The position numbers and the translations under genes were made by a program. A stretch of 64,000 nt of DNA, from contig JBDTAC010000086.1 in assembly GCA_039924845.1 (NCBI GenBank), forward strand, positions 1 through 64,000. The letters are read 5' to 3'. This document shows, piece by piece, positions 18,439 to 56,600 of this stretch. The DNA comes from Bacteroidia bacterium. GTDB lineage: Bacteria; Bacteroidota; Bacteroidia; DATLTG01. How positions within the stretch are numbered: the first letter of the stretch is position 1; every line of letters starts with the position of its first letter. Under the pieces are notes generated by a model. That model saw only the letters and a list, made by a program, of their open reading frames with translations, had not been told where the DNA came from and did no database searches.

Positions 18439-18454
18439 CAAATATATATCTTTG
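18439..18454. promoter_or_regulatory. Back-to-back minus-7 boxes of hemL and kynU
   Basis: The 16 bases CAAATATATATCTTTG hold two exact TAnnTTTG boxes with no base between them: TATATTTG on the minus strand (18439-18446) for hemL and TATCTTTG on the plus strand (18447-18454) for kynU. RNA polymerase probably cannot occupy both at once. Confidence 0.6.
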
Positions 18455-18508
18455 AGGCGTATAAATTTTCATAAACACGATTTTAAATTTCCAAAAAATA
18501 TTTTTTTG

Positions 18509-19777
18509 ATGACCTATAAAAATACGCTTGAATTTGCTTTGCAGCAAGACAAAGAAGATGCTTTAAATTCTTATCGTGAAAAATTTTATTTCCCGCAAAT
18601 GCACGGGCGCGAAGTAGTTTATTTTACAGGAAATTCACTCGGACTACAACCAAAATCTACGCAAGATGCTATTTTGAATGAGTTGGAAGATTGGGCTACT
18701 TTTGGTGTAGAAGGACATTTTCACGCACGAAATCCTTGGCTTTCGTATCATGAACAATTTGCGAAACCGCTCGCAAAAATTGTGGGCGCAAATCCTACAG
18801 AAATTATTGTGATGAACCAATTGACGGTGAATTTACATTTGTTGATGGTGAGTTTTTATCGTCCTACAAAAACGCGCTATAAAATTTTGTGCGAAGCAAA
18901 AGCATTTCCATCCGATCAATATGCCTTGACTTCGCAAATAAAATTTCATGGATTAAATCCAGATGATGCGATTATTGAAGTTTCTCCGCGCGAAGGCGAG
19001 CATTGCATTCGGCACGAAGATGTGTTGAAAGCCATCGAAGAAAATAAAAATTCTTTGGCGTTGATTTTAATTGGCGGTGTTAATTATTACAACGGACAAG
19101 TGTTCGATATGAAAGCAATTACCGAAGCTGGACACAAAGCTGGTGCTGTTGTTGGTTTCGATTTGGCGCACGCAGCCGGAAATTTAAAATTGCAGTTGCA
19201 CGATTGGAATGTTGATTTTGCATGTTGGTGCAGTTACAAATATTTAAACTCTGGTCCAGGTGGCGTTTCGGGCGTTTTTATTCACGAAAATAATTTGAAT
19301 AATCCGGAGACAATTCGTTTTGCAGGTTGGTGGGGGCACGATAAAAATTCGCGTTTTAAAATGGAAAAAGAATTTGTTCCGATGCCAACTGCCGAAGCTT
19401 GGCAAATGAGCAATGCGCCTGTTTTATCAATGGCTGCACACAAAGCTGCTGTTGCTATTTTTGATGAAGTAGGAATGGATGCGCTCACAAAAAAATCAGA
19501 AAAATTAACGGGATATTTAGAATTTGTGTTGGATGAAATCAATCAATCGCTGCTACAAAAATTAGAAATTATTACGCCACGCGATAAAAAACAAAGAGGG
19601 TGCCAACTTTCTATCATCGCACATGGACGCGGAAAAGAACTGTTCAACAAAATAACACAAGCCGGAGTAATTGCGGATTGGCGCGAACCAAATGTGATTC
19701 GTGTTGCTCCCGTTCCGCTGTATAATTCGTTTGAAGATGTTTTTAGATTCGGAGAAATTTTGAAAAATAATTTGTAA
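18509..19777 (+). CDS. kynU: Kynureninase
   Basis: A 422-residue PLP enzyme that cleaves kynurenine or 3-hydroxykynurenine to (3-hydroxy)anthranilate and alanine. Landmarks: YFTGNSLGLQPKST near the N-terminus, the FDLAHAAGN segment, the PLP lysine in WCSYKYLNSGPGG (Lys244), and HDKNSRFKME. The start is the ATG at 18509, which begins inside the end of an A/T-core palindrome; the upstream frame has no homology-like content. kmo follows after 10 bases, so the two steps are co-transcribed and act in the reverse order (KMO first). HaaO and ACMSD for the next steps are at 39.2-40.8 kb. Confidence 0.96.
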   Translation: MTYKNTLEFALQQDKEDALNSYREKFYFPQMHGREVVYFTGNSLGLQPKSTQDAILNELEDWATFGVEGHFHARNPWLSYHEQFAKPLAKIVGANPTEIIVMNQLTVNLHLLMVSFYRPTKTRYKILCEAKAFPSDQYALTSQIKFHGLNPDDAIIEVSPREGEHCIRHEDVLKAIEENKNSLALILIGGVNYYNGQVFDMKAITEAGHKAGAVVGFDLAHAAGNLKLQLHDWNVDFACWCSYKYLNSGPGGVSGVFIHENNLNNPETIRFAGWWGHDKNSRFKMEKEFVPMPTAEAWQMSNAPVLSMAAHKAAVAIFDEVGMDALTKKSEKLTGYLEFVLDEINQSLLQKLEIITPRDKKQRGCQLSIIAHGRGKELFNKITQAGVIADWREPNVIRVAPVPLYNSFEDVFRFGEILKNNL

Positions 19778-19787
19778 AAAATAAAAA

Positions 19788-21140
19788 ATGAGTAAGAAAA
19801 TAACCATTGTTGGAGCAGGATTAGTAGGTTCTTTATTATCCATTTATTTGGCAAAGCGCGGACATAAAATATCGCTTTTCGAACGGAGATCGGATATGCG
19901 AAAATCACAATTGTCTGCCGGAAAATCTATTAATCTCGCGTTGAGCGACAGAGGTTGGAAAGGTTTGGAAGGTATTGGAATTGCGGATGAAATAAAAAAG
20001 ATTGCCATTCCGATGTACGGGCGTTTTATTCATCACAAAGATGGTTCAACGGCTTATCAACCTTATGGAAAAGAGAATCAAGCAATTTATTCTGTTTCGC
20101 GTGCCGAAATAAATATGCGCTTAATAGATTTGGCGGAGCAACAGGAAAACGTAAAAATTTATTTTGACGAACGTTGCACGCACATTGATAAAAACGCGTT
20201 GGAAACAGAATTTGAAAATGCCGAAACAAAAAAAATAACGAAACAAAAAAGTGATTTGCTTTTTGGATCAGATGGCGCCTTTTCCGCTTCACGCTTGGCA
20301 ATGCAATTACACAGCGACCGATTTGAATACAACCAACATTATATTTCCGCAGGTTATAAAGAGTTAATTATTCCGCCGGGTGAAAATGAAAAATTTCTTA
20401 TCGAAAAAAATGCTTTACACATTTGGCCTCGTGGAAGCTTTATGATGATTGCACTTCCGAACTTAGACGGGAATTTCACTTGTACTTTATTTCTTCCTTT
20501 TGAAGGAGAAAAATCGTTTGAAAAATTAAAAACAGATGAACAAATTCTCAATTTTTTTAACGAAGAATTCCCAGATGCCGTTCCGCTAATGCCGACATTG
20601 TTACAAGATTTCAAGCAAAATCCAGTTGCTTCCTTGGTTACTGTAAAATGTTTTCCTTGGACGTTTGACGAAAAAATTGCTTTGATTGGCGATGCGGCTC
20701 ACGCCATTGTGCCGTTTTACGGACAAGGCATGAACTGCGGTTTTGAAGATTGTGTAGTGTTAAATAATTTGATGGAAAAATACGCTGAAAATTGGGAAAC
20801 TATTTTTCACGAATATGAAAATTTACGTAAACCGGATGCCGATGCCATTGCCGATTTAGCGATTATGAATTTTGTGGAAATGCGCGATAAAACGGCTGAT
20901 CCAAAATTTTTAGTACAGAAAAAAATTGAAGCGCGTTTCAGTCAAAAGCACCCTGACAAATGGATTCCACTTTATTCGATGGTTACGTACAATCCGCAAA
21001 TACGCTATTCTACTGCTTTACGCGAAGGTGAAAAACAAGAACGCATTATGCAAAAAGTGATGAAGCTCGAAAATATTGAGCAAAAATGGGACAGCGATGA
21101 AGTAGAAAATTTGATGTTGGAAAATTTGAAAAAAGCTTAA
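19788..21140 (+). CDS. kmo: Kynurenine 3-monooxygenase
   Basis: A 450-residue FAD monooxygenase that hydroxylates L-kynurenine with NADPH and O2. Landmarks: the N-terminal dinucleotide fold (VGAGLVGS, Gly9-Gly14), the GKSINLALSDRGWKGL substrate-side segment, the FAD motif IGDAAHAIVPFYGQGMNCG (about residues 298-316), and a C-terminal helix that in this family contacts the membrane or substrate. Length is normal. It lies 10 bases after kynU in one operon. A short gap with no terminator follows, then a convergent beta-lactamase-fold gene. Confidence 0.96.
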   Translation: MSKKITIVGAGLVGSLLSIYLAKRGHKISLFERRSDMRKSQLSAGKSINLALSDRGWKGLEGIGIADEIKKIAIPMYGRFIHHKDGSTAYQPYGKENQAIYSVSRAEINMRLIDLAEQQENVKIYFDERCTHIDKNALETEFENAETKKITKQKSDLLFGSDGAFSASRLAMQLHSDRFEYNQHYISAGYKELIIPPGENEKFLIEKNALHIWPRGSFMMIALPNLDGNFTCTLFLPFEGEKSFEKLKTDEQILNFFNEEFPDAVPLMPTLLQDFKQNPVASLVTVKCFPWTFDEKIALIGDAAHAIVPFYGQGMNCGFEDCVVLNNLMEKYAENWETIFHEYENLRKPDADAIADLAIMNFVEMRDKTADPKFLVQKKIEARFSQKHPDKWIPLYSMVTYNPQIRYSTALREGEKQERIMQKVMKLENIEQKWDSDEVENLMLENLKKA

Positions 21141-39231: not shown

Positions 39232-39756
39232 ATGAGCATTCGCAGACCTTTCAATTTTAAAAAATGGATTGATGAAAATCGTCACCTTTTAAAACCTCCT
39301 GTAGGTAATAAAGTGGTGTATGAAGATACCGAGTTTATCGTGATGGTTGTGGGCGGACCGAATTCTCGAAAAGATTATCATTGGAATGAAAGTGAAGAAT
39401 TTTTTTATCAATTGGAAGGCGATATTTTAGTGAAAATTCAGGAAGATGGAAAAGCCATTGATGTTCCAATTCATGAAGGAGATATTTTTTTATTACCTCC
39501 TAAAACACCTCACAACCCTTGTCGCGGTGCCAATACCATTGGCTTAGTAATGGAACGCAAACGCAAAGATTTTGAAAAAGATGGACTGCTTTGGTTCTGC
39601 GAAAAATGCAATCATAAATTATATGAAAAATATTTTTCGCTCACAAATATCATGACGCAATTTCAAGAAACTTTCCAAGAATTTTACGCCAGCAAAGACC
39701 ATCGCACGTGTAAAAACTGCTGCCACGTAATGGAACCGCCTCCTGTCATAAAATAA
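39232..39756 (+). CDS. haaO: 3-Hydroxyanthranilate 3,4-dioxygenase
   Basis: A 174-residue cupin dioxygenase that opens the ring of 3-hydroxyanthranilate to aminocarboxymuconate semialdehyde. Catalytic iron ligands are His50, Glu56 and His94, and substrate arginines Arg46 and Arg98, each one residue before the Cupriavidus numbering I recall. A second, rubredoxin-like iron site is formed by Cys123, Cys126, Cys160 and Cys163. Length is that of bacterial HaaO. The ACMSD gene follows 41 bases downstream, across a palindrome. Confidence 0.95.
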   Translation: MSIRRPFNFKKWIDENRHLLKPPVGNKVVYEDTEFIVMVVGGPNSRKDYHWNESEEFFYQLEGDILVKIQEDGKAIDVPIHEGDIFLLPPKTPHNPCRGANTIGLVMERKRKDFEKDGLLWFCEKCNHKLYEKYFSLTNIMTQFQETFQEFYASKDHRTCKNCCHVMEPPPVIK

Positions 39757-39797: not shown

Positions 39798-40811
39798 ATG
39801 TTAAGTATTGATATTCACACGCACATTTTGCCGGAACACATTCCGAATTGGAAAAAAAAATTCGGCTACGGCGGTTTTATCCATTTAGATCATCACAAAC
39901 CTTGCTGCGCAAGGATGATGAGAGACGATCATTTTTTTAGAGAAGTAGAAGACAATTGTTGGAGCGCCGAAAAACGAATGCAAGAATGCGATCATCATCA
40001 CGTAAATGTGCAGGTTTTATCAACCGTTCCGGTGATGTTTAGTTATTGGGCAAAAGCATCGGATTGTTTGGAATTAGCTCAATTTTTAAACGATCACATT
40101 GCCAGAATTGTACAACGTTATCCAAAACGCTTTATCGGTTTAGGAACCTTGCCCTTGCAAGCGCCCGACTTAGCAATAATAGAATTGGAACGTTGTAAAA
40201 AAATAGGATTGGCAGGCATTCAAATAGGCTCGCACGTAAGCGAATGGAACTTAAATGCACCCGAATTATTTCCTGTTTTTCAAGCTTGCGAAGAATTGGG
40301 AATGTCCATATTTGTGCATCCTTGGGAAATGATGGGACAAGAAAAAATGCAACGTTATTGGCTACCTTGGCTGGTTGGAATGCCCGCTGAAACTTCGCTC
40401 GCCATTTGCTCTATGATATTTGGCGGCGTGTTTGAACGTTTACCGAAATTGCGCGTTGCTTTTGCACACGGTGGCGGCTCGTTTCCTTCCACTATTGGTC
40501 GCATTGAACACGGTTTTAATTGTCGTCCCGATTTGGTAGCCATTGATAACAACGTAAATCCGAAAAAATATTTAAAACATTTTTGGTTGGATAGTTTGGT
40601 GCACGATGCCAAAGCACTCGATTTTATTGTAGATTTAATGGGCTCCAATCGAATTGCGCTTGGCAGCGATTATCCCTTTCCTTTGGGCGAAAATAATCCA
40701 GGAAATTTAATTCATTCCATGCCTTACGACGATTCCAAAAAAGCCCAACTTTTGCACGGTTCAGCCCTTGAATGGCTGGATTTGTCGAAAGAGCGTTTTA
40801 TTGGTTCTTAG
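39798..40811 (+). CDS. 2-Amino-3-carboxymuconate-6-semialdehyde decarboxylase (ACMSD)
   Basis: A 337-residue amidohydrolase-superfamily protein. Zinc ligands: His7 and His9 (DIHTHILPEH), the FVHPWEMMG histidine, VAFAHGGGSFP, and the aspartate in ALGSDYPFPLGE. In context it removes CO2 from aminocarboxymuconate semialdehyde, sending the pathway to 2-aminomuconate and central metabolism instead of quinolinate and NAD. It lies directly after haaO. Other amidohydrolase decarboxylases share the motifs, but the neighbour strongly favours ACMSD. Confidence 0.92.
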   Translation: MLSIDIHTHILPEHIPNWKKKFGYGGFIHLDHHKPCCARMMRDDHFFREVEDNCWSAEKRMQECDHHHVNVQVLSTVPVMFSYWAKASDCLELAQFLNDHIARIVQRYPKRFIGLGTLPLQAPDLAIIELERCKKIGLAGIQIGSHVSEWNLNAPELFPVFQACEELGMSIFVHPWEMMGQEKMQRYWLPWLVGMPAETSLAICSMIFGGVFERLPKLRVAFAHGGGSFPSTIGRIEHGFNCRPDLVAIDNNVNPKKYLKHFWLDSLVHDAKALDFIVDLMGSNRIALGSDYPFPLGENNPGNLIHSMPYDDSKKAQLLHGSALEWLDLSKERFIGS

Positions 40812-46092: not shown

Positions 46093-46110
46093 TTATGATT
46101 TCAGTCATAA
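46093..46110. promoter_or_regulatory. Candidate Crp/Fnr-family operator
   Basis: The perfect inverted repeat TTATGA-N6-TCATAA has the TGA-N6-TCA geometry of Crp/Fnr-class sites. Its centre (46101.5) lies about 41 bases before the likely transcription start (near 46142), the position of class II activator sites. A Crp/Fnr gene lies in the operon below (49321). Confidence 0.6.
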
Positions 46111-46130: not shown

Positions 46131-46138
46131 TAATTTTG
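46131..46138 (+). promoter_or_regulatory. Minus-7 box of the NO/O2 stress operon
   Basis: TAATTTTG matches TAnnTTTG exactly. No minus-33 TTTG is present at the expected place, as in activator-dependent promoters. The first start codon is at 46162. Confidence 0.55.
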
Positions 46139-46161: not shown

Positions 46162-46434
46162 ATGAAAATCCTTGATTTTACGGAGCAAGATCTCCAAACC
46201 AATCACTTCGGAATTATTTCATTTACGCTCATTGTTCAAAGTTGCATTGGCTCTATCGCTTGCGCGATGTTGTTGGCTGCACATTTATCTACTTTCTGGC
46301 TAACTACTTGCATATTCGCAACAATGGGTGCGGACGTTTCGGTTATTTCGCAAGCTCCCACCAAATGGGTTATTCGTGCTTTTGTGGCATGCGTTTTAAT
46401 TAATCTATTGATTATGCTGCTCTGCGTTATTTAA
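46162..46434 (+). CDS. Small two-helix membrane protein, unknown
   Basis: A 90-residue protein with two long hydrophobic segments (IISFTLIVQSCIGSIACAML, about residues 18-37, continuing to about 55; and AFVACVLINLLIMLLCVI at the end). The start is well placed 24 bases after the minus-7 box. It is the first gene of the stress operon, 10 bases ahead of the tryptophan dioxygenase gene. I do not recognise a family; small membrane proteins of this kind are found next to NO-detoxification genes in other Bacteroidota, as far as I recall, but the function is not known. Confidence 0.65.
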   Translation: MKILDFTEQDLQTNHFGIISFTLIVQSCIGSIACAMLLAAHLSTFWLTTCIFATMGADVSVISQAPTKWVIRAFVACVLINLLIMLLCVI

Positions 46435-46444
46435 AATAAAAATT

Positions 46445-47371
46445 ATGGAACCAAATAATATTATTGAAGCAATCGAAGAAAAATACAAAAATTTGGGTGA
46501 AAATCCAGATACGTATTTGAAAGGGTTATTACACGCAAAGCCTATTAATTATTGGGATTATATAGGTGTCGAAACTTTATTATCCTTACAGAAACCTAGA
46601 ACCAATTTTAAGGACGAAGAAATTTTTATAATGTATCATCAAGTTACGGAATTGCTTCTTAAATTAGTGTTGCACGAGGTGAAACAAATTTCGGGTGATA
46701 ACAATCCTTCTGAAGAAATAATGATTTCCAAACTCGATCGCATCAATCGTTATACATCCATGTTAATGACATCGTTCGACATTATGAAACACGGAATGGA
46801 TTACGATGATTACAATACTTTTCGCTTAACATTAGCTCCCGCAAGCGGCTTTCAGAGCGCACAATTCAGACACATCGAATTATACAGCACACGCTTAGAA
46901 AATTTGGTGAACGAAGCAGGTAAAAAACGTTTGTCTACACAATCGAGTATCGAAGAATATTTTGAAAATATTTATTGGAAAGATGCTGGATTGAACCGAA
47001 CAACCGGAAAAAAGACACTCACACTTCGACAATTTGAAGAAAAATATTTAAAAACTTTTATCGCCTTAGCGCAAGATTTAAAAGGAAAAACAATTGAAGA
47101 CAAAGTGTTGCAGTTTGAAAATCCATCCGAAAAATTAATAGAGAAATTACGAAGTTTTGATCACATTTATAATGTTGAATGGCCTATTGTTCATTTAGAA
47201 ACTGCTCGCTTTTTCTTAGATAAAAAAGGGGAGAATAAAGCCGCAACAGGCGGATCAGAATGGAAAAAATATTTACATCCACAGTTCCAACAACGTAAAT
47301 TTTTCCCACGCATTTGGACAGATACAGAAATAAAAAAATGGGGAGAAGAAACGATTTTAAAAACTATTTAA
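46445..47371 (+). CDS. kynA: Tryptophan 2,3-dioxygenase
   Basis: A 308-residue heme enzyme opening the indole ring of L-tryptophan to N-formylkynurenine. Landmarks: EIFIMYHQVTELLLKLVLHE (substrate/heme pocket His in this segment), DYNTFRLTLAPASGFQSAQF, and the proximal-His region WPIVHLETARFF with the ATGGSEWKKYLHPQ loop, a divergent form of the usual GTGGSSG. Length is normal. It is embedded in the NO/O2 stress operon and not with kynU-kmo or haaO, which is unusual. NO and CO bind its heme, which gives a possible logic for its location. Confidence 0.93.
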   Translation: MEPNNIIEAIEEKYKNLGENPDTYLKGLLHAKPINYWDYIGVETLLSLQKPRTNFKDEEIFIMYHQVTELLLKLVLHEVKQISGDNNPSEEIMISKLDRINRYTSMLMTSFDIMKHGMDYDDYNTFRLTLAPASGFQSAQFRHIELYSTRLENLVNEAGKKRLSTQSSIEEYFENIYWKDAGLNRTTGKKTLTLRQFEEKYLKTFIALAQDLKGKTIEDKVLQFENPSEKLIEKLRSFDHIYNVEWPIVHLETARFFLDKKGENKAATGGSEWKKYLHPQFQQRKFFPRIWTDTEIKKWGEETILKTI

Positions 47372-47373
47372 TC

Positions 47374-47673
47374 ATGGAAACATTAACAAAACCTGAAGTT
47401 GTATTGCTTAAAACAGGAAACAACTTTAAAGTATTAGAAGTAAAAGGAATTGCAGGAATGGAAATGCCGGAACATCACACCACCAATGAAGCAACACTAC
47501 TTATTACGGAAGGTAGTGCCGTTTTAAAAATGGATGGAAAAGATATTTTACTCCAAAAGGATGAAGTATTTTTTGTTCCTGCAAATAAAAAACACAGCCT
47601 GCTAATAAAAACAAAATTTAAAGCAAGAGTAGTGATGGCGAAAGATTGCGCTATTGAATTTAGTAAATTTTAA
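47374..47673 (+). CDS. Single-domain cupin protein
   Basis: A 99-residue small cupin starting METLTKPEVVLLKTG; an upstream in-frame ATG would overlap the dioxygenase gene. The cupin pattern shows PEHHTTNEATLLITEGSAVL (motif 1 with two His and a Glu) and VFFVPANKKHSLLIKT (motif 2 with His), so it can bind one metal ion. Its role is not known; single cupins next to redox genes may be dioxygenase-like or sensory. It follows kynA by two bases. Confidence 0.8.
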   Translation: METLTKPEVVLLKTGNNFKVLEVKGIAGMEMPEHHTTNEATLLITEGSAVLKMDGKDILLQKDEVFFVPANKKHSLLIKTKFKARVVMAKDCAIEFSKF

Positions 47674-47683
47674 AACAGAAATC

Positions 47684-48412
47684 ATGAAAACAATAACCGA
47701 AGAGACAATTGCCGAAATGGTAAGAGAAGATTATCGCACAGCGAAAATTTTCAAAAAATACAACATTGATTTTTGTTGCAAAGGAAATATTTCCTTAGAA
47801 GCGATTTGCTTAGAAAAGAATATAGATACTGAAAAAATTCGAGCTGAATTAACGGCTCTGCAAAAATCGAAACAGAATAGAGACATTGATTATAACTCTT
47901 GGCATTTAGATTTATTGGCAAATTATATCGAGAAAAAACACCATCGGTATGTGGAAGAAACCACTCCTACACTAAAATCTTTTTTAGATAAAATTTGCTC
48001 GGTGCACGGAAATAAACATCCAGAACTTTTCCAGATCAATAAACTATTTCATGAATCTGCCGGAGAGTTTGCGGTACACATGAAAAAAGAAGAATTAATT
48101 ATTTTTCCGTTTATCCGAAAAATGGTAGCCGCAGAAACTGCAAAAAAAGGAATGGAGAAACCAAGTTTCGGCAGCATCGAAGATCCGATTGAAATGATGA
48201 AACACGATCATGTTGTAGAAGGCGAACGCTTCGAGAAAATTGCTGCTTTAAGTAATAATTACACGCCACCTGCGGATGCTTGCAACACCTACAAAGTAAC
48301 CTTCGCCTTGCTCAAAGAATTTGAAGAAGATTTGCATTTGCATGTCCATTTAGAAAATAATATTTTATTTCCAAAAGCAATCGAACTCGAAAAAAAATTC
48401 GATCATGGATAA
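47684..48412 (+). CDS. ric: Iron-sulfur cluster repair di-iron protein (RIC/YtfE/ScdA)
   Basis: A 242-residue protein. The N-terminal ScdA domain has ETIAEMVREDYRTAKIFKKY and the CCKGN cysteine pair (Cys31-Cys32). The C-terminal hemerythrin-like domain carries the di-iron ligands as HHRYVEE, FAVHMKKEELIIFPF, HDHVVEGERF and HVHLENNILFP. RIC proteins repair Fe-S clusters after nitric oxide or oxidative damage. The start MKTITEET at 47684 is chosen because the frame upstream overlaps the cupin gene. The gene overlaps the globin gene by 8 bases. Confidence 0.95.
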   Translation: MKTITEETIAEMVREDYRTAKIFKKYNIDFCCKGNISLEAICLEKNIDTEKIRAELTALQKSKQNRDIDYNSWHLDLLANYIEKKHHRYVEETTPTLKSFLDKICSVHGNKHPELFQINKLFHESAGEFAVHMKKEELIIFPFIRKMVAAETAKKGMEKPSFGSIEDPIEMMKHDHVVEGERFEKIAALSNNYTPPADACNTYKVTFALLKEFEEDLHLHVHLENNILFPKAIELEKKFDHG

Positions 48413-48773
48413 GTCTGATATAAAGGCAATTGACGACGTGCATTTGTTGGTTCATTCTTTTTACAACAAAGTGAGAAAAGATATCCTTTTATCACCTATT
48501 TTTGATGCAGTAATAAAAACAGAAGATTGGGATTTTCATCTTTCGAAAATGTGTGAATTTTGGAATAGCATATTATTAAACACACGCAGTTTTAGAGGCG
48601 ATCCGGCAGGTAAGCATTTGCCACTACCAATAAATGCACAACATTTTTCGAGGTGGCTCTTTTTATTTTCTGAAACTGTTGACGAATTATTTTCGGGTGA
48701 AACAGCCGAAATGGCAAAAAGTAGAGCTTTCGGAATTGGTAATGTAATGCAAGCGATGAAGGGAATTCAATAA
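48405..48773 (+). CDS. Group III truncated hemoglobin
   Basis: A 122-residue 2/2 globin. Seen: VHLLVHSFYNKVRKDILLSPIF (helix A/B region), a Phe/Trp-rich pocket (KMCEFWNSILL), and the proximal His in LPINAQHFSRWLFLF. The short form and the LxxHFxRWL phrase place it in group III. Such globins bind O2 and NO; a role in NO detoxification is suggested by the neighbours. Start ATG lies inside the end of ric, with 8-base overlap, so translation is coupled. Confidence 0.9.
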   Translation: MDKSDIKAIDDVHLLVHSFYNKVRKDILLSPIFDAVIKTEDWDFHLSKMCEFWNSILLNTRSFRGDPAGKHLPLPINAQHFSRWLFLFSETVDELFSGETAEMAKSRAFGIGNVMQAMKGIQ

Positions 48774-48779
48774 CATAAA

Positions 48780-49286
48780 ATGGAAGCAACTAAAAAACCG
48801 ATTCAGAGACACAATTCACTCAAATCAATCAGCAGAGAACATCACGAGGGTTTGCTTTTGTGTTGGAAAATAAGAACAGGATTCAGAAATACGATTGCCA
48901 TTAAACGAATAAAGAATTATTGCGATTGGTTTTTCGAACATCAGTTATCGCCACATTTTAAAATCGAAGAAAAATATCTTTTCCCCATTTTAGGAAGGGA
49001 GAATGAACTGGTGAAAAAGGCACTTTCCGAACATCGAAGATTAAAACGATTATTCGAAAACACTACTGATTTGGAAAAATCTTTGAATCACATTGAAGAG
49101 GAATTAGAAGCGCACATTCGTTTTGAGAAACGTATTTTATTTAATGAAATACAAAATTCCGCTACAAAAGAAGAATTGAAAAATGCAGAACAGCAACATC
49201 TCGAATTGAATCTAAATCAAGAAAAATTAAAGGATTGGGGCGATGTGTTTTGGGAACACTCAAAAACCTCTGCTACTACTTTTTAA
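48780..49286 (+). CDS. Hemerythrin-domain protein
   Basis: A 168-residue single hemerythrin HHE domain. The ligand set is seen as SREHHEGLLLCWKIR, PHFKIEEKYLFPILG, SEHRRLKRLFE and AHIRFEKRILFNEI, giving the His and Glu residues for a di-iron site. Such proteins bind O2 or NO, or store iron. It follows the globin gene by six bases, in the same operon, and is distinct from the RIC protein in lacking the ScdA domain. Confidence 0.9.
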   Translation: MEATKKPIQRHNSLKSISREHHEGLLLCWKIRTGFRNTIAIKRIKNYCDWFFEHQLSPHFKIEEKYLFPILGRENELVKKALSEHRRLKRLFENTTDLEKSLNHIEEELEAHIRFEKRILFNEIQNSATKEELKNAEQQHLELNLNQEKLKDWGDVFWEHSKTSATTF

Positions 49287-49295
49287 AATCAGATG

Positions 49296-49314
49296 TAAAA
49301 AATTATTTTTTTGA
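49296..49314. repeat. A/T-core palindrome copy before the Crp/Fnr gene
   Basis: TAAAAAATTATTTTTTTGA lies between the hemerythrin gene and the start codon at 49321. It could partially end the upstream transcript or act as an A-rich translation leader. Confidence 0.5.
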
Positions 49315-49320
49315 TACACA

Positions 49321-49914
49321 ATGATTCCGGAGAAAATACTCATCGAATTTGGTGCGCAGGAAAAAAAATTTTCGAAAGGAAAATTTATTTTTTCAGAAGA
49401 AAGTGAAGTACTTTTCTTTTATCAAATAAAAACAGGAATCGTTAAGATGTCAAATTTTAGTGAGGATGGGAAGGAATTTGTGCAAGGCGTTTTTAAAGAC
49501 GGAGAAAGTTTTGGTGAACCTCCATTGTTCGATGAATTTCCATATCCGGCAAATGCTATTTCAGAAGCAGAAACTATTTTATTCCGACTTCCGAAAGATT
49601 TTTTTTTCGAATTACTAAAAAATAATTTCGACATTCATCTTAAATTTACCAAAACACTTGCTTCGCGAATTTCTTACAAAGCAATGCAGATGAAGGAATT
49701 TGCCAACTTCAAACCGGAACATCATATTTTAACATTAATTGATTATTTCAAAAAGAAAAATAATTTTTCTGGAGACGGAAAATATCAATTGACACTTACG
49801 CGACAAGAAATTGCATATCTTACTGGCTTGCGTGTGGAAACGGTTATTCGCACCATCAAGCATTTAGAAAGAATCGGCGAATTGGAAATCCGAAAAGGAA
49901 AAGTTTTCCGTTAG
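49321..49914 (+). CDS. Crp/Fnr-family transcriptional regulator
   Basis: A 197-residue regulator: an N-terminal cyclic-nucleotide-type beta-roll (GIVKMSNFSEDGKEFVQGVF, GESFGEPPLFDEFPYPANAI), a dimerisation helix (LLKNNFDIHLKFTKTLASRI), and a C-terminal winged helix with LTRQEIAYLTGLRVETVIRTIKHLE. No N-terminal cysteine cluster, so it is not an Fe-S Fnr; it resembles DNR-like heme/NO sensors in its setting. It is the natural candidate to bind the TGA-N6-TCA palindrome at 46093-46110 and switch the operon in which it lies. Confidence 0.9.
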   Translation: MIPEKILIEFGAQEKKFSKGKFIFSEESEVLFFYQIKTGIVKMSNFSEDGKEFVQGVFKDGESFGEPPLFDEFPYPANAISEAETILFRLPKDFFFELLKNNFDIHLKFTKTLASRISYKAMQMKEFANFKPEHHILTLIDYFKKKNNFSGDGKYQLTLTRQEIAYLTGLRVETVIRTIKHLERIGELEIRKGKVFR

Positions 49915-49931
49915 AAAAATTATTTTTTGAA
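49913..49931. repeat. A/T-core palindrome copy after the Crp/Fnr gene
   Basis: AGAAAAATTATTTTTTGAA; it overlaps the TAG stop (49912-49914). It may separate the regulator from the lipoprotein-NDH-2 pair. Confidence 0.5.
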
Positions 49932-49991
49932 AATCAATTCGTAAAGTAAGTGTGAATGATATAAAAAACTTAACAAATTATGTAACACCAA

Positions 49992-50132
49992 ATGCTGCTG
50001 CGCCACTCATCTTTGCATAAAATATCAAACATAAAAAAAGTAGTTACACTAGCGCTTGCAGGAGTAGTATTATTACCGACTTCCTGTGGAGTAGAAGTAG
50101 AGAACGGACAGACTTACCACCTTATACAATGA
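49992..50132 (+). CDS. 46-residue lipoprotein coupled to NDH-2
   Basis: A short gene reading MLLRHSSLHKISNIKKVVTL at its N-terminus, then ALAGVVLLPTSC with a lipobox (LPTSC, acylated Cys32) and a 14-residue tail. The stop overlaps the NDH-2 start as ATGA (50129-50132), the usual sign of translational coupling. The start could be a TTG eight codons later, which leaves a shorter signal sequence; the lipobox is unaffected. Such a tiny lipoprotein is easily missed in annotation. Function unknown; it may help place NDH-2 at the membrane. Confidence 0.55.
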   Translation: MLLRHSSLHKISNIKKVVTLALAGVVLLPTSCGVEVENGQTYHLIQ

Positions 50133-51406
50133 AAATAAAGAAGAAAATAATAGTTGTAGGTGGCGGATTTGCAGGAATCCAATTGGTCAGAAAGTTAGAC
50201 GAAAATCTTTTTGATGTTCTTTTGATTGATAAAATAAATCACCATCAATTCCAACCTTTATTTTATCAAGTTGCCACTTCTCAACTTGAGCCATCAAGCA
50301 TTTCATTCCCGCTTAGAAATATTTTTAAGAACAAGAAAAATGTTCAGATTCGTTTAGCTGAAGTTCAAAGTGTTGATGAGAAAAACAATAAAATAACTAC
50401 CTCTATTGGCGATTTTACGTATGATTATTTGGTGATGGCAATAGGTTGTACCACCAACTTTTTTGGCAATCAAAATATATCGGATAACGCACTAACACTC
50501 AAATCTACTTACGATGCGATAACTGTTAGAAATCATATTTTGCTGACTTTTGAAAAAATAATTTCTGCGACTGAAGAAGAAAAAGTTGCTCTATTAAATC
50601 TCGTAATAGTTGGTGCCGGACCCACAGGCGTTGAGCTTTCAGGCGCATTTGCAGAAATAAAAAATAATATTTTACCGAAAGATTATCCGAGAATTAATTT
50701 TTCAAAATTCAAGATTTTACTGATTGAAGGAAGTAAAAATACCTTGAATAATATGAGTGATCAATCGAAAATAGATTCTAAAAATTACTTGAAACAATTA
50801 GGAGTTGAAATAATTACAGAGACTTTTGTGAAGGATTACGATGGCACTGTTTTAATATTAAATAATGGCGAAAAGATTAAAACAAAAACAGTCATCTGGA
50901 CAGCAGGAGTTACGGGAAATAAAATAAGCGGATTTCAGGAAAATATATTTGCTAACGGAAACAGATTTAAAGTAAATCGGATAAATAAAATTTCTGGAAG
51001 TGAAACTATTTTTGCCATTGGAGACATCGCATTTATGGAAACGCCTCTTTATCTCAAAGGTCATCCGCAAGTGGCGAACGTTGCTATCAACCAAGCAAAA
51101 ATACTGGCGAAAAATTTAAAATTTATAGAACTAAATAAACCAACTATTGATTTTGAATACAAAGACCTCGGATCAATGGCTACAATTGGCAGAAACAAAG
51201 CAGTTGTTGATTTACATTTGCTTCATTTTAAAGGTTATTTCGCTTGGTTGGTTTGGATGTTTCTTCATTTGATGTTGATTTTAAGCGTGAAAAATAAACT
51301 CATTATATTTATCAATTGGGCTTGGGCTTATGTTACAAAAGACAGTTCTTTACGTTTGATTCTTTATCAAAATAAAAGAACGAATTACAAAAAGGGCGGA
51401 GATTAA
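50129..51406 (+). CDS. ndh: Type II NADH dehydrogenase (NDH-2)
   Basis: A 425-residue FAD flavoprotein that oxidises NADH and reduces quinone without pumping protons. Two dinucleotide folds: VVGGGFAGIQLVRKL (residues 8-22) and VIVGAGPTGVELSGAFAE (about 170). A conserved AIGDIAFM follows near 310. The C-terminal GYFAWLVWMFLHLMLILSVKN contains a membrane-associated helix. Length is normal. Its place in the stress operon suggests a role in keeping respiration going under NO, as NDH-2 has no Fe-S clusters, which NO would damage. Confidence 0.93.
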   Translation: MKIKKKIIVVGGGFAGIQLVRKLDENLFDVLLIDKINHHQFQPLFYQVATSQLEPSSISFPLRNIFKNKKNVQIRLAEVQSVDEKNNKITTSIGDFTYDYLVMAIGCTTNFFGNQNISDNALTLKSTYDAITVRNHILLTFEKIISATEEEKVALLNLVIVGAGPTGVELSGAFAEIKNNILPKDYPRINFSKFKILLIEGSKNTLNNMSDQSKIDSKNYLKQLGVEIITETFVKDYDGTVLILNNGEKIKTKTVIWTAGVTGNKISGFQENIFANGNRFKVNRINKISGSETIFAIGDIAFMETPLYLKGHPQVANVAINQAKILAKNLKFIELNKPTIDFEYKDLGSMATIGRNKAVVDLHLLHFKGYFAWLVWMFLHLMLILSVKNKLIIFINWAWAYVTKDSSLRLILYQNKRTNYKKGGD

Positions 51407-51451
51407 GAATTTCCTCACAAAATAAAAAATAAAAACTATAAAAATAAAATT

Positions 51452-52120
51452 ATGGAAAAGCAAATTGTAAAAATCCACTCGATAGAAAAAATTACCCGCG
51501 ATGTGGTAAAAATTATAACCGATAAACCTGCAGGATATAAATTTAATCCGGGACAAGCAACAGAAATTGCCATTAACAAAAATGGTTGGGAAGAAGAAAA
51601 AAGACCCTTTACTTTTACCTGTTTGCCCGAGGATGATTACCTCGAATTTGTCATCAAAACATATCCTTCGCACAAAGGTGTTACCAATGAATTGTTGCGA
51701 CTAAAAAAGGGCGATGAGTTAATTATAGGTGAAGTATTTGGAGCAATTTCATACAAAGGAGAAGGTGTGTTTATAGCAGGTGGCGCAGGAATTACGCCTT
51801 TCATTTCTATTTTCAAATATCTTAAACAGAAGAAAGAAATCGGAAATAATAAACTCGTATTCGCAAATAAAACCAAAGCTGATATTATACTTGAAAAAGA
51901 GTTTACGAATTTATTAGGTGATGCGTTTATCAATATTTTATCTGATGAAAAAACAACGAATCATCATCACGGAATGATTACTGAAAATTTTCTTAAATCA
52001 ATTATTACCGATTTTCATCAGCAATTTTATATTTGCGGACCTCCTCCAATGATGGATGCAGTGCTAAAACAATTAAAAAATTTGGGCGTTGGCGAAAACG
52101 CAATGACGGTGGAAATATAA
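51452..52120 (+). CDS. FAD/NAD(P)H oxidoreductase of the ferredoxin-reductase fold
   Basis: A 222-residue protein with the flavin motif KRPFTFTCLP (R-x-Y/F-S/T, about residues 51-60), the pyridine-nucleotide segment AGGAGITPFISIFKYL (about 108-123) and the C-terminal CGPPPMMDAVLKQL. It is a two-domain reductase without an iron-sulfur domain. Its size and motifs match the reductase half of flavohemoglobin (Hmp). As a globin gene lies 2.7 kb upstream in the same run, it is a candidate partner for that globin, but this is inference. Confidence 0.85.
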   Translation: MEKQIVKIHSIEKITRDVVKIITDKPAGYKFNPGQATEIAINKNGWEEEKRPFTFTCLPEDDYLEFVIKTYPSHKGVTNELLRLKKGDELIIGEVFGAISYKGEGVFIAGGAGITPFISIFKYLKQKKEIGNNKLVFANKTKADIILEKEFTNLLGDAFINILSDEKTTNHHHGMITENFLKSIITDFHQQFYICGPPPMMDAVLKQLKNLGVGENAMTVEI

Positions 52121-52128
52121 GAAACAAA

Positions 52129-52656
52129 ATGGCGAAGACTGAAAATAAAACAATCTGGACAATCGGTCATTCCACACATAGTTTCGAGGAGTTTGTTGCT
52201 ATGTTGCACGTCTTTGAAATAGATTTGCTTGTAGATATCCGAAGCTTTCCGGGTTCAAGACGTTATCCGCATTTTAATAAAGAAGCATTAGAAATTTCGT
52301 TACCGGAAAATAAAATTCAATACGTCCATTTGAAAGACCTTGGCGGTAGAAGGAAAGTGAATCCCAATTCAATTAACACAGCTTGGCGATTGGCTTCTTT
52401 CAGAGGCTACGCGGATTATATGGAAACCGATAATTTTAAAAAAGCGATATGCGATTTGGAGGAAATGGCTTTAAAACAACGCACTGCTTATATGTGTTCC
52501 GAAGCTGTTTGGTGGAGATGTCATCGCTCACTTGTTTCCGATTTCTTGAAACTTCGCGGCTGGACAGTACTACATATAATGAGCGCCACAAAGGAAATGG
52601 AACATCCTTACACTTCTCCTGCAAAAATTGTGGAGGGCGAGTTGCAGTACAATTGA
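52129..52656 (+). CDS. DUF488 family protein
   Basis: A 175-residue protein starting MAKTENKTIWTIGHST; the longer open frame overlaps the reductase gene. Family signatures: WTIGHSTHSFEEFV, LVDIRSFPGSRRYPHFN and the CSEAVWWRCHRSLVSDFL segment with two cysteines and His. DUF488 proteins are widespread with no settled function; a nucleic-acid or redox-related role has been suggested. It follows the reductase gene by 8 bases and is the last gene of the run. The intergenic region after it (98 bases) has no recognised terminator. Confidence 0.85.
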   Translation: MAKTENKTIWTIGHSTHSFEEFVAMLHVFEIDLLVDIRSFPGSRRYPHFNKEALEISLPENKIQYVHLKDLGGRRKVNPNSINTAWRLASFRGYADYMETDNFKKAICDLEEMALKQRTAYMCSEAVWWRCHRSLVSDFLKLRGWTVLHIMSATKEMEHPYTSPAKIVEGELQYN

Positions 52657-52754: not shown

Positions 52755-53675
52755 TTATTGAACTTGCGCTTGGCTTCCGTTTCGAGTACGTGTGGCGAAT
52801 TTAATACCAATCATTAGTTCGTAGGTTCCACTGCTGTATTTGCGGATATCAGTAGTAGTAAAATCGTACGCGAAGCCGAACATCAAATTCTTTTTAACAG
52901 TATATCCAATCATCGCCGAAATAGCATCCATGGTACGGTAATCAGCACCTATCCACATTTGGTCTTGATAAATAAGTCGCAAACCTGCATCCACTTGTAC
53001 GGGAGCCGGATACACATATTTCACCATCGTGGTGGGTTGTAAATCAAAGTTATCTGATAATTTAATTTTATAGCCTGCTGTGGCATAGTAATGAGTAGCA
53101 AGGTCGCTAAGCGGGGTGTTGGTATTATCGAAAAACTTTAATTTGTCTTGCAACAACTGTGGTGCAGACACACCCAAGTAAAAACGGTCGGAGTATAAGT
53201 ACATACCAAAGGCAAAGTCAGGTACTAATGTGGACTGCAATTGATCGCTTAACACTAAATCACCTGGATCACGCAATGTTATTTTAGAACCATCAATGGC
53301 AAATTGTTGTAGCCCTGCAGATAACCCAAAAGACAATCGTAAATTTTCTGATAATCGGATATGATAGGCATAACTGGCTTCAAAACCTGTTCTTCGGGTA
53401 GGACCTGTATTATCGGTATAGAGGTATCCTCCTAATCCCATGTTTTTCCCTCTCCAAGGTCCGTTCACACTAAGCGTATATGTTCGGGGCGCATCTGTAA
53501 TGCCTTCCCATTGGTATCTATTATTAGAAGCTGCTTCGTAATAAGGCAATGTTCCTGCTACTGCAGGATTTAGTACAAAATCATTCATCATGTACTGACT
53601 AAACATAGGTAGCTGCTGAGCTTGTACTTTCACAAAGCCAATTACTAATACGAGCAATACGATACGTTTTTTCAT
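52755..53675 (-). CDS. PorP/SprF family T9SS outer-membrane protein
   Basis: A 306-residue beta-barrel protein with signal peptide (LLVLVIGFVKVQAQQ). The N-terminal QLPMFSQYMMNDFVLNPAVAGT is the hallmark of the PorP/SprF family. It lies 10 bases after the giant SprB-like gene, the sprB-sprF order. In Flavobacterium, SprF is needed for SprB export and attachment, so this protein most likely serves the adhesin next to it. The last part (LMFGFAYDFTTTDIRKYSSGTYELMIG) is typical of the family. Confidence 0.93.
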   Translation of the reverse strand: MKKRIVLLVLVIGFVKVQAQQLPMFSQYMMNDFVLNPAVAGTLPYYEAASNNRYQWEGITDAPRTYTLSVNGPWRGKNMGLGGYLYTDNTGPTRRTGFEASYAYHIRLSENLRLSFGLSAGLQQFAIDGSKITLRDPGDLVLSDQLQSTLVPDFAFGMYLYSDRFYLGVSAPQLLQDKLKFFDNTNTPLSDLATHYYATAGYKIKLSDNFDLQPTTMVKYVYPAPVQVDAGLRLIYQDQMWIGADYRTMDAISAMIGYTVKKNLMFGFAYDFTTTDIRKYSSGTYELMIGIKFATRTRNGSQAQVQ

Positions 53676-53685
53676 CTTCTTATTT

Positions 53686-56600
53686 TTAACGTAGTATGGT
53701 TATAGGTCCTGTATATACATTAGGGAATCGAGGATCGTTCAGATTAATAATGTAATAATAGGTTCCAACTGGTAATGGCTTGGCATTATAAGTACCATCC
53801 CATTTGGTGATGTATCCAGGAGAACTAAATAGTAATTCGCCCCAACGATTATATATCTCAACCAAACATTTTGGGAAATATTGGATGTTATCAATAATCC
53901 ACGTATCGTTTTTACCATCTCCATTCGGTGTAATCCCATTCGGGAAGCTGATTTCAGGTAATACAGTAATTGTTACAGAGTCTCTTTCAGAACAACCGCT
54001 CGCATTGGTAACAGTTACCGTATAAGTAGTTGTTGTAAGAGGTGTAGCAACTGGATTAGCAGCTGTTGAATCGCTCAATCCTGTTGTAGGATGCCAAGAA
54101 TATGTAGAGCCCGGAGGGCCGGTAGGACTGCCTCCAATAGTTATACTTGTATAGATGACTATTGTTTGATTAGCTCCCATATTGACAACTGGTAAAGGAT
54201 TAGAAGTAACAGATACAGTATCCGCATCTGGACAAGTTCCGTTGGTAGCAACTACTACATAATCCGTAGTACCTGTTGGTGGATTTACTGAAACTGATTG
54301 CGTATTGGCAATAAGTACCATGCCCGGTAATTGAAACCATTGGTAAGTTAATCCACCTACATTTCCAGTTGCTTTTAGTGTAATATTTCCAGATTGACAG
54401 AAAGAAGTGTCGTTTCCAGCTTCTACCAAAGTGGTAACAGCGGCGGTTACTATTGCACTGTCTTTAATACTACATCCGTTTGCGTCCGTTACCGTAAGAA
54501 TGTAATCGCCTGGTAAAATATTCATTAGACTTTGTGTGGTAGCCAATGAGCTTCCAGACCATTGGAAAGAGTATGGAGGAGTACCGCCGCCAACGGTTTC
54601 CGTGATAGAGCCATTATTTGCGGTATTACAAGCGGTGTTTACTACTATATGGGAAACTGTGATTGGAGTTGGGTTAATAAGTATAAATGTTTGTTGCGGA
54701 GTAGCACAACCGTTGGCATCCGTAACTGTAACCGAATAGGAACCAGCACATAAATTACTGGCTGTAGCAGTGGTGCTAATGGCTGGGTTCCAAACGTACG
54801 TAAACGGCAGTGTGCCTCCAGAAGGAATCACTGTAATAATACCGTTACAAGAACCAGCACACTTAGGTTGAGATACAAATGTCTTACTAAATGTAATGGA
54901 TGTTGGTGTTGTGATTGTGAATACGAGTGTACGCACGCAGCCTGCATTGTCCGTTACTTTCAGAGAATAATTTCCAGCACACAATCCATTATCGGTAGCA
55001 CCTATTTGACCGTTACTCCATGAATAAGTATAAGGAGAAACTCCGCCGCTGACCATTGCAGTGGCTGATCCGTTACAAGTACCATTGCACGTAATATTAG
55101 TAGTAGTAATATTTACTGTTGGGCTTGTCGGGTTATTGACTGGAATTGCAAAAGTTTGTTTACAACTCGATGCGTCCGTTACTGTTACGGTGTATGTTCC
55201 GGCACAAAGGCTGTTAATTGTCGCTGTGGTTTGAGCTCCCGGAGCCCACAAGTATGTATAAGGCGCTGTGCCACCCATTGGATTCACCGAAATACTGCCG
55301 TTACAAAGTCCGCAAGGAGTACTGCTTACACTTTGATTGATTGTAAAAGCCTGATTGGATGTTATAATGACTGTTTTAATAGTTGAGCAGCCCGCTGAAT
55401 CAATTACTTGTACATTGTAGATGCCAGCACATAAACTATTTACCGAATTGGTTGTTTGTCCACCTGGTATCCATAGATAAGTGTATGGAGCACTTCCTCC
55501 AGAAGGAATGGCAGTAGCAGTTCCGTTGCAAGTTCCAAAACAAGTGGCATTTGTAGATGTAATCGTTACGGTTGGACCTCCGCTACTGTTTACCGTAATT
55601 GTTGTTGTGGAAGTACACCCTTTGTTGTCCGTAATATTTACATCATATACGCCAGCGCAAAGTCCGTTTGCGGAAGAGCTTGTTTGTCCGCTACTCCACA
55701 TATATGTATAAGGAGCAGTTCCGCCAGAAGGCGCAAGTGTTATTTGTCCGTTACACATTCCACAAGTAGAAGCTGTAACAGTAGGATTTGCAAGTATTGT
55801 TGAGTTTTGTAGTATGGTGGCTAATCCAGCTGCTGTACAACCGTTCGCATCCGTAACAGTTACGGTATAATTACCAGCACACAAGGCGCTTGCTGTTGCA
55901 GTGGTTTGAGATTGAGAATCATTCCATTGGTAAGTATAAGGACTTGATCCACCAGCGGGTGTTATCGTTGCAGAACCATTGCAGATCCCATTACATCCTG
56001 CAGGCACAACACTTACAGGAGCTGTTAAAATAGTTGTTGGTACAATTGCAACCGAATCTTTAAATGTACACGCATTTGCATCTGTAATATTATAAACATA
56101 TTCTCCCGGACACAAATTAGAAAGCGAAGATGTAGTTTGTCCTGTATTCCATGAATAGGTATAAGGCAACGTTCCTCCAGAAACAGTGAGAGTAATAGAT
56201 CCATTGCAAACTCCCGCGCAAGTTGCTTTCACAGTCGTAGGTGTAGTATTGAGCGGTCCTGGTTGTACAATAGTAGTACTGTCAATTCGGATACATCCAT
56301 TCGCATCCGTTATTTGAACGAAATATTTTCCCGCACATAAATTGGATACTGCATTGGATGTTTGCCCACCTGGTGTCCAAGAATAGGTATATGGAGAAAC
56401 TCCCCCAGAAGGAACATCTGTAATTGTTCCGTTGCAGGATCCATTACAAGAAACATTCGTTTGAGTCATCATATCTCCTGAAGGTCCACTCGAATTACTT
56501 AATGGAATTACAAGTTTGCTCGAACAGCCATTTGCATCTGTAACAGTTACCGTATAAATACCCGCACACACATTGTTAATAGTGGAAGTTGTTTGTCCTC

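Follow-up and report, generated by a model that had tools for sequence, protein, structure and literature searches.

The heme of tryptophan 2,3-dioxygenase (TDO) binds both O2 and nitric oxide (NO). In Campylobacter, the Crp/Fnr protein NssR reportedly controls a truncated globin, together with a single-domain haemoglobin, under nitrosative stress, and we know of no TDO or iron-sulfur cluster repair protein RIC in that regulon. As in the loci described here, Rrf2 or Crp/Fnr proteins preside over NO genes such as dnrN (a relative of RIC), norB and hcp in the NsrR and Crp/Fnr (HcpR, DNR, NnrR) regulons of PMC1274295; in the accessible part of that text the word "tryptophan" is absent, and most Bacteroides HcpR2 regulons consist of hcp only. 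The word is also missing from the accessible part of a RIC review (PMC9268430), and full-text literature searches, whose reach excluded most subscription papers, found no report of TDO in an NO operon. In mammals, according to the accessible part of PMC10220489, NO controls the heme content of TDO and IDO1. Here we analyse an operon at 46162-52656 of a 64-kb stretch of Bacteroidia DNA (contig JBDTAC010000086.1; the whole stretch is called the window), in which a TDO lies among genes for RIC, a truncated globin, a hemerythrin-domain protein and a Crp/Fnr protein. With moderate confidence, we favour the reading that this operon is an NO/low-oxygen module whose TDO is a genuine but conditional isozyme of its own lineage (type A, TDO-A), protected by the globin and feeding the kynurenine pathway.

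Composition of the window operon

The operon comprises eleven open reading frames (ORFs), all on the + strand:

46162..46434, + strand: MEM90, a small three-helix membrane protein of 90 amino acids (aa), first gene, without family match
46445..47371, + strand: type A TDO (Pfam PF03301)
47374..47673, + strand: small cupin (Cupin_2, Pfam)
47684..48412, + strand: RIC/YtfE iron-sulfur cluster repair di-iron protein (ScdA_N and Hemerythrin, TIGR03652)
48405..48773, + strand: group III truncated globin (Bac_globin; PDB 2ig3)
48780..49286, + strand: hemerythrin-domain protein (Pfam Hemerythrin)
49321..49914, + strand: cysteine-free Crp/Fnr family regulator (CRP family match)
49992..50132, + strand: 46-aa ORF with a possible lipobox, no family match, gene status uncertain
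50129..51406, + strand: type II NADH dehydrogenase-like flavoprotein (NDH-2; NDH2_C and Pyr_redox_2)
51452..52120, + strand: FAD/NAD(P)H reductase (family match; 68-bit resemblance to the reductase portion of flavohemoprotein Hmp as well)
52129..52656, + strand: DUF488 protein (Pfam)

All eleven had been listed in a previous sequence-only reading of the window, and Pfam and NCBIfam models plus PDB matches confirmed their families except for the membrane protein and the 46-aa ORF. RIC, with its ScdA_N and Hemerythrin domains, exceeds the TIGR03652 equivalog cut-off (233.9 versus 204.7 bits), and the globin is related to a solved group III truncated haemoglobin, its best PDB match (2ig3, 7e-16). 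MEM90 was modelled with three helices at a predicted local distance difference test score (pLDDT) of 79; a second membrane protein without family, of 144 aa, was modelled with four helices (pLDDT 83) and matched nothing in the PDB at E<=0.001.

Where the sequence-only reading had set TDO at the head of the operon, the first gene is MEM90. The gaps between successive ORFs (10, 2, 10, -8, 6, 34, 77, -4, 45 and 8 nucleotides (nt)) are mostly short or overlapping, as had been said, but 77 nt part crp from the last four ORFs (46-aa ORF, NDH-2, reductase and DUF488). These four do not belong to the conserved set, being absent beside TDO in nearly all relatives, and the 46-aa ORF, previously called a lipoprotein, may not be a gene. 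Because of the 77-nt gap and the unconserved tail, the safe unit predicted from the sequence is limited to the first six or seven genes, membrane protein-TDO-cupin-RIC-globin-hemerythrin(-crp), and a single eleven-gene transcript is only putative. A scan for terminator-like sites found none in the + strand gaps and overall gave no more than its shuffles.

Linkage and operators in Bacteroidota

The source genome (2.66 Mb, 99% complete) carries a second TDO, type B, which is 45% identical to the window TDO and stands alone on contig C25, after a gene named by eye as leucyl-tRNA synthetase-like. In a tree of 101 TDOs, type A parted from type B with a support of 99, and intermediate unlinked lineages appeared in a wider tree that included a class-wide draw; long branches leave some placements unsure, that of L183 most. 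We compared 80 loci with a window-like type A TDO (63-73% identical), counting as neighbours the same-strand genes within 6 kb of TDO; some of these contigs are short and possibly hide neighbours. Of all loci fetched, L147 and L153 were left out of the analysis. A first classification gave 41 loci with globin, RIC, hemerythrin or Rrf2 genes, 2 after a cbb3 operon and 37 unlinked. As L018, among the 37, has a globin at -831, the corrected counts are 42, 2 and 36. The linkage thus recurs across Bacteroidota, with 44/80 A-type relatives linked to globin, RIC, hemerythrin, Rrf2, nos or cbb3 genes. Culturable species with the linkage include Zobellia uliginosa and Pricia antarctica.

Globin is the most constant partner and in 34/80 either adjoins TDO or is separated from it by one gene for a 146-aa membrane protein. 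The commonest order is Rrf2-(MEM90)-(CcoN-like, CcoO-like)-globin-(146-aa membrane protein)-TDO-(cupin or methyltransferase)-RIC-hemerythrin-ferredoxin-like, and nos genes precede TDO and globin in L050, L057, L060, L070 and L081 (NosZ and NosD confirmed in L060 and L057). The sequence-only reading would have counted separation of TDO from these genes in near relatives against itself; the A-type TDOs nearest to that of the window in the tree are linked, but the 36 unlinked relatives show that separation does occur. Linked rows spread across the A clade, and the tree would be explained best by an old linkage between TDO and NO genes that was lost several times.

The control loci behaved differently. 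Globin, RIC, hemerythrin or Rrf2 genes lie near TDO in 42/81 A-type loci (window included) versus 1/19 B-type loci (p=1.7e-4). Twenty second-TDO neighbourhoods had been fetched, one of which, L135 (60% identical), turned out A-like with a globin beside it; the 19 B-type loci held one globin at 3.8 kb, one MEM90 on the opposite strand, and no RIC, hemerythrin or Rrf2 gene. An even draw of 295 genomes from the class (TDO match in 234, RIC match in 158) yielded 17 A-type loci at >=62% identity, namely 13 newly fetched, three from the relatives and the window. Linkage was found in 13/17 of these versus 1/25 lower-identity loci (p=1e-6), the 25 being a part of all lower-identity matches; one of the four unlinked A-type loci is cut by a contig end. 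The sole linked lower-identity locus, L183, combines a 51% identical long-branch TDO with a full Rrf2-CcoN-CcoO-globin-TDO-RIC-HHE operon.

Some features of individual loci deserve mention. L164 has a tandem pair of TDO ORFs inside an Rrf2-MEM90-globin operon. The CcoN-like subunit of the NO operons L006, L016, L032, L034, L038, L048, L053, L059, L065 and L073 keeps the HH pair and the preceding tyrosine; the GHN motif is absent from it and present in the cbb3 copies of L008, L012 and L037, and the subunit may belong to either an oxidase or an NO reductase. A DUF488-like gene, possibly the remnant of an old cluster, follows TDO in the unlinked Aequorivita/Marixanthomonas-type loci L025-L028, L030, L046, L054, L061, L068, L076, L082 and L083, and also occurs in the NO operons L016, L029, L036 and L040.

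Upstream of Rrf2 genes in the relatives lies a long palindrome with the core GGAYA-N4-TRTCC. Allowing at most one mismatch, this core was found within 150 nt before 24/28 Rrf2 genes and 9/1037 other genes, with a second copy within 150 nt after Rrf2 in 14/28; it was found upstream of 0/37 unlinked A TDOs and 0/19 B TDOs. L006 and L029, two of the four Rrf2 misses, retain the symmetry with altered arms. All 28 Rrf2 proteins contain C-x6-C-x5-C, the three cysteines expected of iron-sulfur (Fe-S) family members, NsrR and IscR among them. One of them, that of L029, passes the Rrf2 superfamily model (75.7 versus 73.3 bits) and stays below the NsrR equivalog cut-off (34.1 of 182 bits). The window's genome holds 12 exact cores (control 4), and among ten examined the sole promoter-like one precedes a norB/norC-like operon, within the longest reading of its first ORF and upstream of the likelier start. 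In that operon (C6, L198:1338-7568, - strand), the norB- and norC-like genes overlap those for tyrosine phenol-lyase (TIGR02618, 729 versus 720.7 bits) and proline dehydrogenase behind the operator GGATAATATTATCC, so that another aromatic amino-acid enzyme is found with NO genes; a second tryptophanase-like fragment begins the same contig. A further NO-type locus (C46, L197:5057-10568, - strand) contains two Rrf2-like genes, a DUF2249-RIC fusion, small membrane proteins and a 424-aa COX1-like protein.

The window operon itself is preceded by a different site:

46093..46110, + strand: Crp/Fnr-like palindrome TTATGATTTCAGTCATAA, centred 29.5 nt upstream of the -7 element
46131..46138, + strand: Bacteroidota-type -7 promoter element TAATTTTG, a consensus match

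Taking the -7 consensus to be TAnnTTTG, we searched the 2.66-Mb genome for ATGA-N6-TCAT followed, after a spacer of 20-25 nt, by that element. The composite occurs at 4 places (reversed control 0): before the window operon, before nirK (TIGR02376, 342.7 bits, cut-off 296.3), before a MEM90 paralogue on contig C57 and before a porin-like gene. With a spacing of 18-27 nt, four occurrences were found in 1.81 Mb of locus DNA, namely the window, the same porin-like gene, Cellulophaga L037, where the site heads a cco-TDO-hemerythrin operon, and one unrelated gene in L064. We propose the window's Crp/Fnr protein as the reader of the candidate site at 46093. It is not an FNR proper, as it has no cysteine and reaches 32.3 of 228 bits with the Fnr model.

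Predicted catalysis by TDO-A and competing explanations

TDO-A passes the Pfam gathering score (PF03301, 76.9 bits, cut-off 34.9) and aligns with the solved TDOs 2nox, 2nw7 and 4pw8 over residues 31-146 and weakly at the protein end. H65, Y123, R127, H250 and T268, which we take to match H55, Y113, R117, H240 and T254 of XcTDO, are kept in 95/95 A-type rows. Six active-site residues (distal His, Tyr, Arg, Phe, heme-ligand His and Thr) are identical in the 54 linked and 41 unlinked A rows, and no residue position tells the two groups apart. Because the catalytic residues are invariant, TDO-A should be a genuine tryptophan 2,3-dioxygenase, as far as sequence can tell. Most of the kynurenine pathway is encoded in the same window, in two gene pairs outside the operon that the sequence-only reading had missed, along with the second TDO, which lay beyond the window:

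18452..19777, + strand: kynureninase (TIGR01814, 460.7 bits, cut-off 246.4)
19788..21140, + strand: kynurenine 3-monooxygenase (KMO; PDB KMO match, 1.4e-103)
39232..39756, + strand: 3-hydroxyanthranilate 3,4-dioxygenase (3-HAO), over the model cut-off
39798..40811, + strand: ACMSD-like decarboxylase (ACMSD 2wm1, 2.6e-136)

NAD synthesis offers a second view of TDO-A. We surveyed 51 genomes, many of them metagenome-assembled, and split them by TDO content; 3-HAO was present in 49/51 and NadA in 20/51. NadA was found in 7/8 genomes whose sole TDO is a linked A and in 4/4 with a linked A and a weak partial TDO match, versus 4/19 with a linked A and a second full-length TDO (in one of these, G009, the A-like L135). 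The corresponding counts were 0/4 for an unlinked A with a second TDO, 5/16 for an unlinked A without one, and 9/39 for all genomes with a TDO outside an NO operon. Depending on how weak matches are treated, p=0.001 to 0.004 or 3e-5 for this pattern, in counts that ignore kinship. Type B, or an A freed from the NO operon, probably serves NAD synthesis in place of NadA, and linked A probably does not, which would suit an enzyme made only under certain conditions. The pattern supports real catalysis by TDO-A and argues against NAD supply as its sole purpose.

We read the operon as the NO/low-oxygen module of a denitrifying member of the Bacteroidota because the genome has nirK, and with it NO production, norB/norC-like genes and a second RIC-Rrf2 locus. 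In our model, NO or low oxygen would be sensed and the module switched on: in most relatives, an Fe-S-type Rrf2 repressor would be released from GGAYA-N4-TRTCC, and in the window the cysteine-free Crp/Fnr protein would act at the site that the operon shares with nirK. NO would be removed by the globin, possibly aided by the reductase, and this globin may hold oxygen as well, while RIC and the hemerythrin would mend or guard iron centres. TDO-A, its heme thus shielded, could continue to convert tryptophan to N-formylkynurenine and so feed the kynurenine pathway, whose genes lie close by. The tie between tryptophan use and NO or oxygen state suggested by the sequence-only reading gains strong genomic support from the conserved linkage, the shared operators and the nos/cbb3 contexts, but there is no sign of an NO-sensing role for TDO.

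Several observations weigh against the module. TDO requires O2, which is scarce in denitrification, and the 36/80 unlinked relatives (Mesonia, Aequorivita, Marixanthomonas and others) imply that TDO-A also works outside NO control. TDO-A misses the TIGR03036 equivalog cut-off by far (95.2 of 390.7 bits), so that, in this divergent lineage, its name rests on Pfam and residues. The porin-like gene behind one of the four composite sites has no known NO role; it encodes a 424-aa protein and lies on C25 of the same genome (L149:36-1310, - strand). The palindrome by itself was rejected as a regulon marker, its 15 one-mismatch sites (reversed control 29) showing no enrichment, and only palindrome plus promoter spacing was selective. 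The NadA counts, finally, are uncorrected for kinship and come in large part from metagenome-assembled genomes.

It seems rather unlikely that TDO is instead induced to rescue NAD, supplying quinolinate and NAD from tryptophan when NO or oxidants poison NadA, a 4Fe-4S enzyme that may be sensitive to NO. The near-universal 3-HAO, the coexistence of NadA and kynurenine genes in the source genome, and NadA in 7/8 genomes with linked A as only TDO, where a backup would make sense, fit this idea; yet 16/31 linked genomes have no NadA to back up, and ACMSD beside 3-HAO drains the intermediate away from quinolinate. As a general reason for the linkage, bypass of NadA is further weakened when linked genomes are simply set against unlinked ones (p=0.14).

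We consider it quite improbable that the operon serves carbon and nitrogen catabolism during denitrifying or microaerobic growth on amino acids, with TDO one of several catabolic genes so controlled. ACMSD does open a catabolic branch, and in the genome's norB/norC-like operon an Rrf2-type operator precedes genes that include those for tyrosine phenol-lyase and proline dehydrogenase, whereas RIC, globin and hemerythrin indicate stress rather than feeding.

That TDO-A is mainly a heme protein, binding or oxidising NO with the globin, its most constant partner, while tryptophan turnover is secondary, appears highly improbable: NO alters both the activity and the heme loading of TDO and IDO1 in mammals, according to the accessible part of PMC10220489, but the tryptophan-site residues R127, T268, H65 and others are invariant in 95/95 rows, every catalytic residue examined is retained, which also disfavours an NO sensor or sink, and A is the sole TDO in 16/20 unlinked genomes, all with 3-HAO.

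Beyond the operon, at 52755-62043 of the window (- strand), a PorP/SprF-like gene adjoins that for a 2785-aa repetitive surface protein, presumably a type IX secretion/gliding adhesin pair.

Comparison with known systems

Entry into the kynurenine pathway is usually assigned to the breakdown of amino acids or to NAD synthesis; in many Bacteroidota it appears here as part of a regulon for NO and low oxygen whose operators can be defined. We give an even chance to the wider proposition that this TDO lineage is an ancestral Bacteroidota arm of the response to nitrosative stress and denitrification, in which Rrf2 or Crp/Fnr would switch on iron-centre repair together with the globin-TDO pair and thereby let the kynurenine pathway take its first step under NO and low oxygen, in parallel to the NO control of mammalian TDO/IDO. 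Denitrifying or NO-stressed Bacteroidota would then be predicted to shift tryptophan and kynurenine levels, which is relevant to soils, wastewater and perhaps host-associated members. TDO-A and TDO-B form, within one genome, a clean paralogue pair for studying how a TDO tolerates NO and a short supply of oxygen, and the two operators can be used to find further targets of both circuits.

The closest described systems each share a part of this arrangement. The kynurenine-pathway TDOs 2nox, 2nw7 and 4pw8 have the active-site His, Arg and Thr and the heme His in common with TDO-A, which, unlike them, lies far under the TIGR03036 cut-off and is an NO-linked paralogue beside a second TDO. The operators GGAYA-N4-TRTCC and ATGA-N6-TCAT are unlike TTGACnnnnGTCAA, quoted in the accessible part of PMC1274295. 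The NssR system of Campylobacter shares the Crp/Fnr protein and the truncated globin; here, by contrast, globin and TDO are neighbours. As for mammalian TDO and IDO1, the activity of TDO would in both cases be set by the NO state, in mammals via heme allocation with expression unchanged (PMC10220489, accessible part), and here apparently via transcription.

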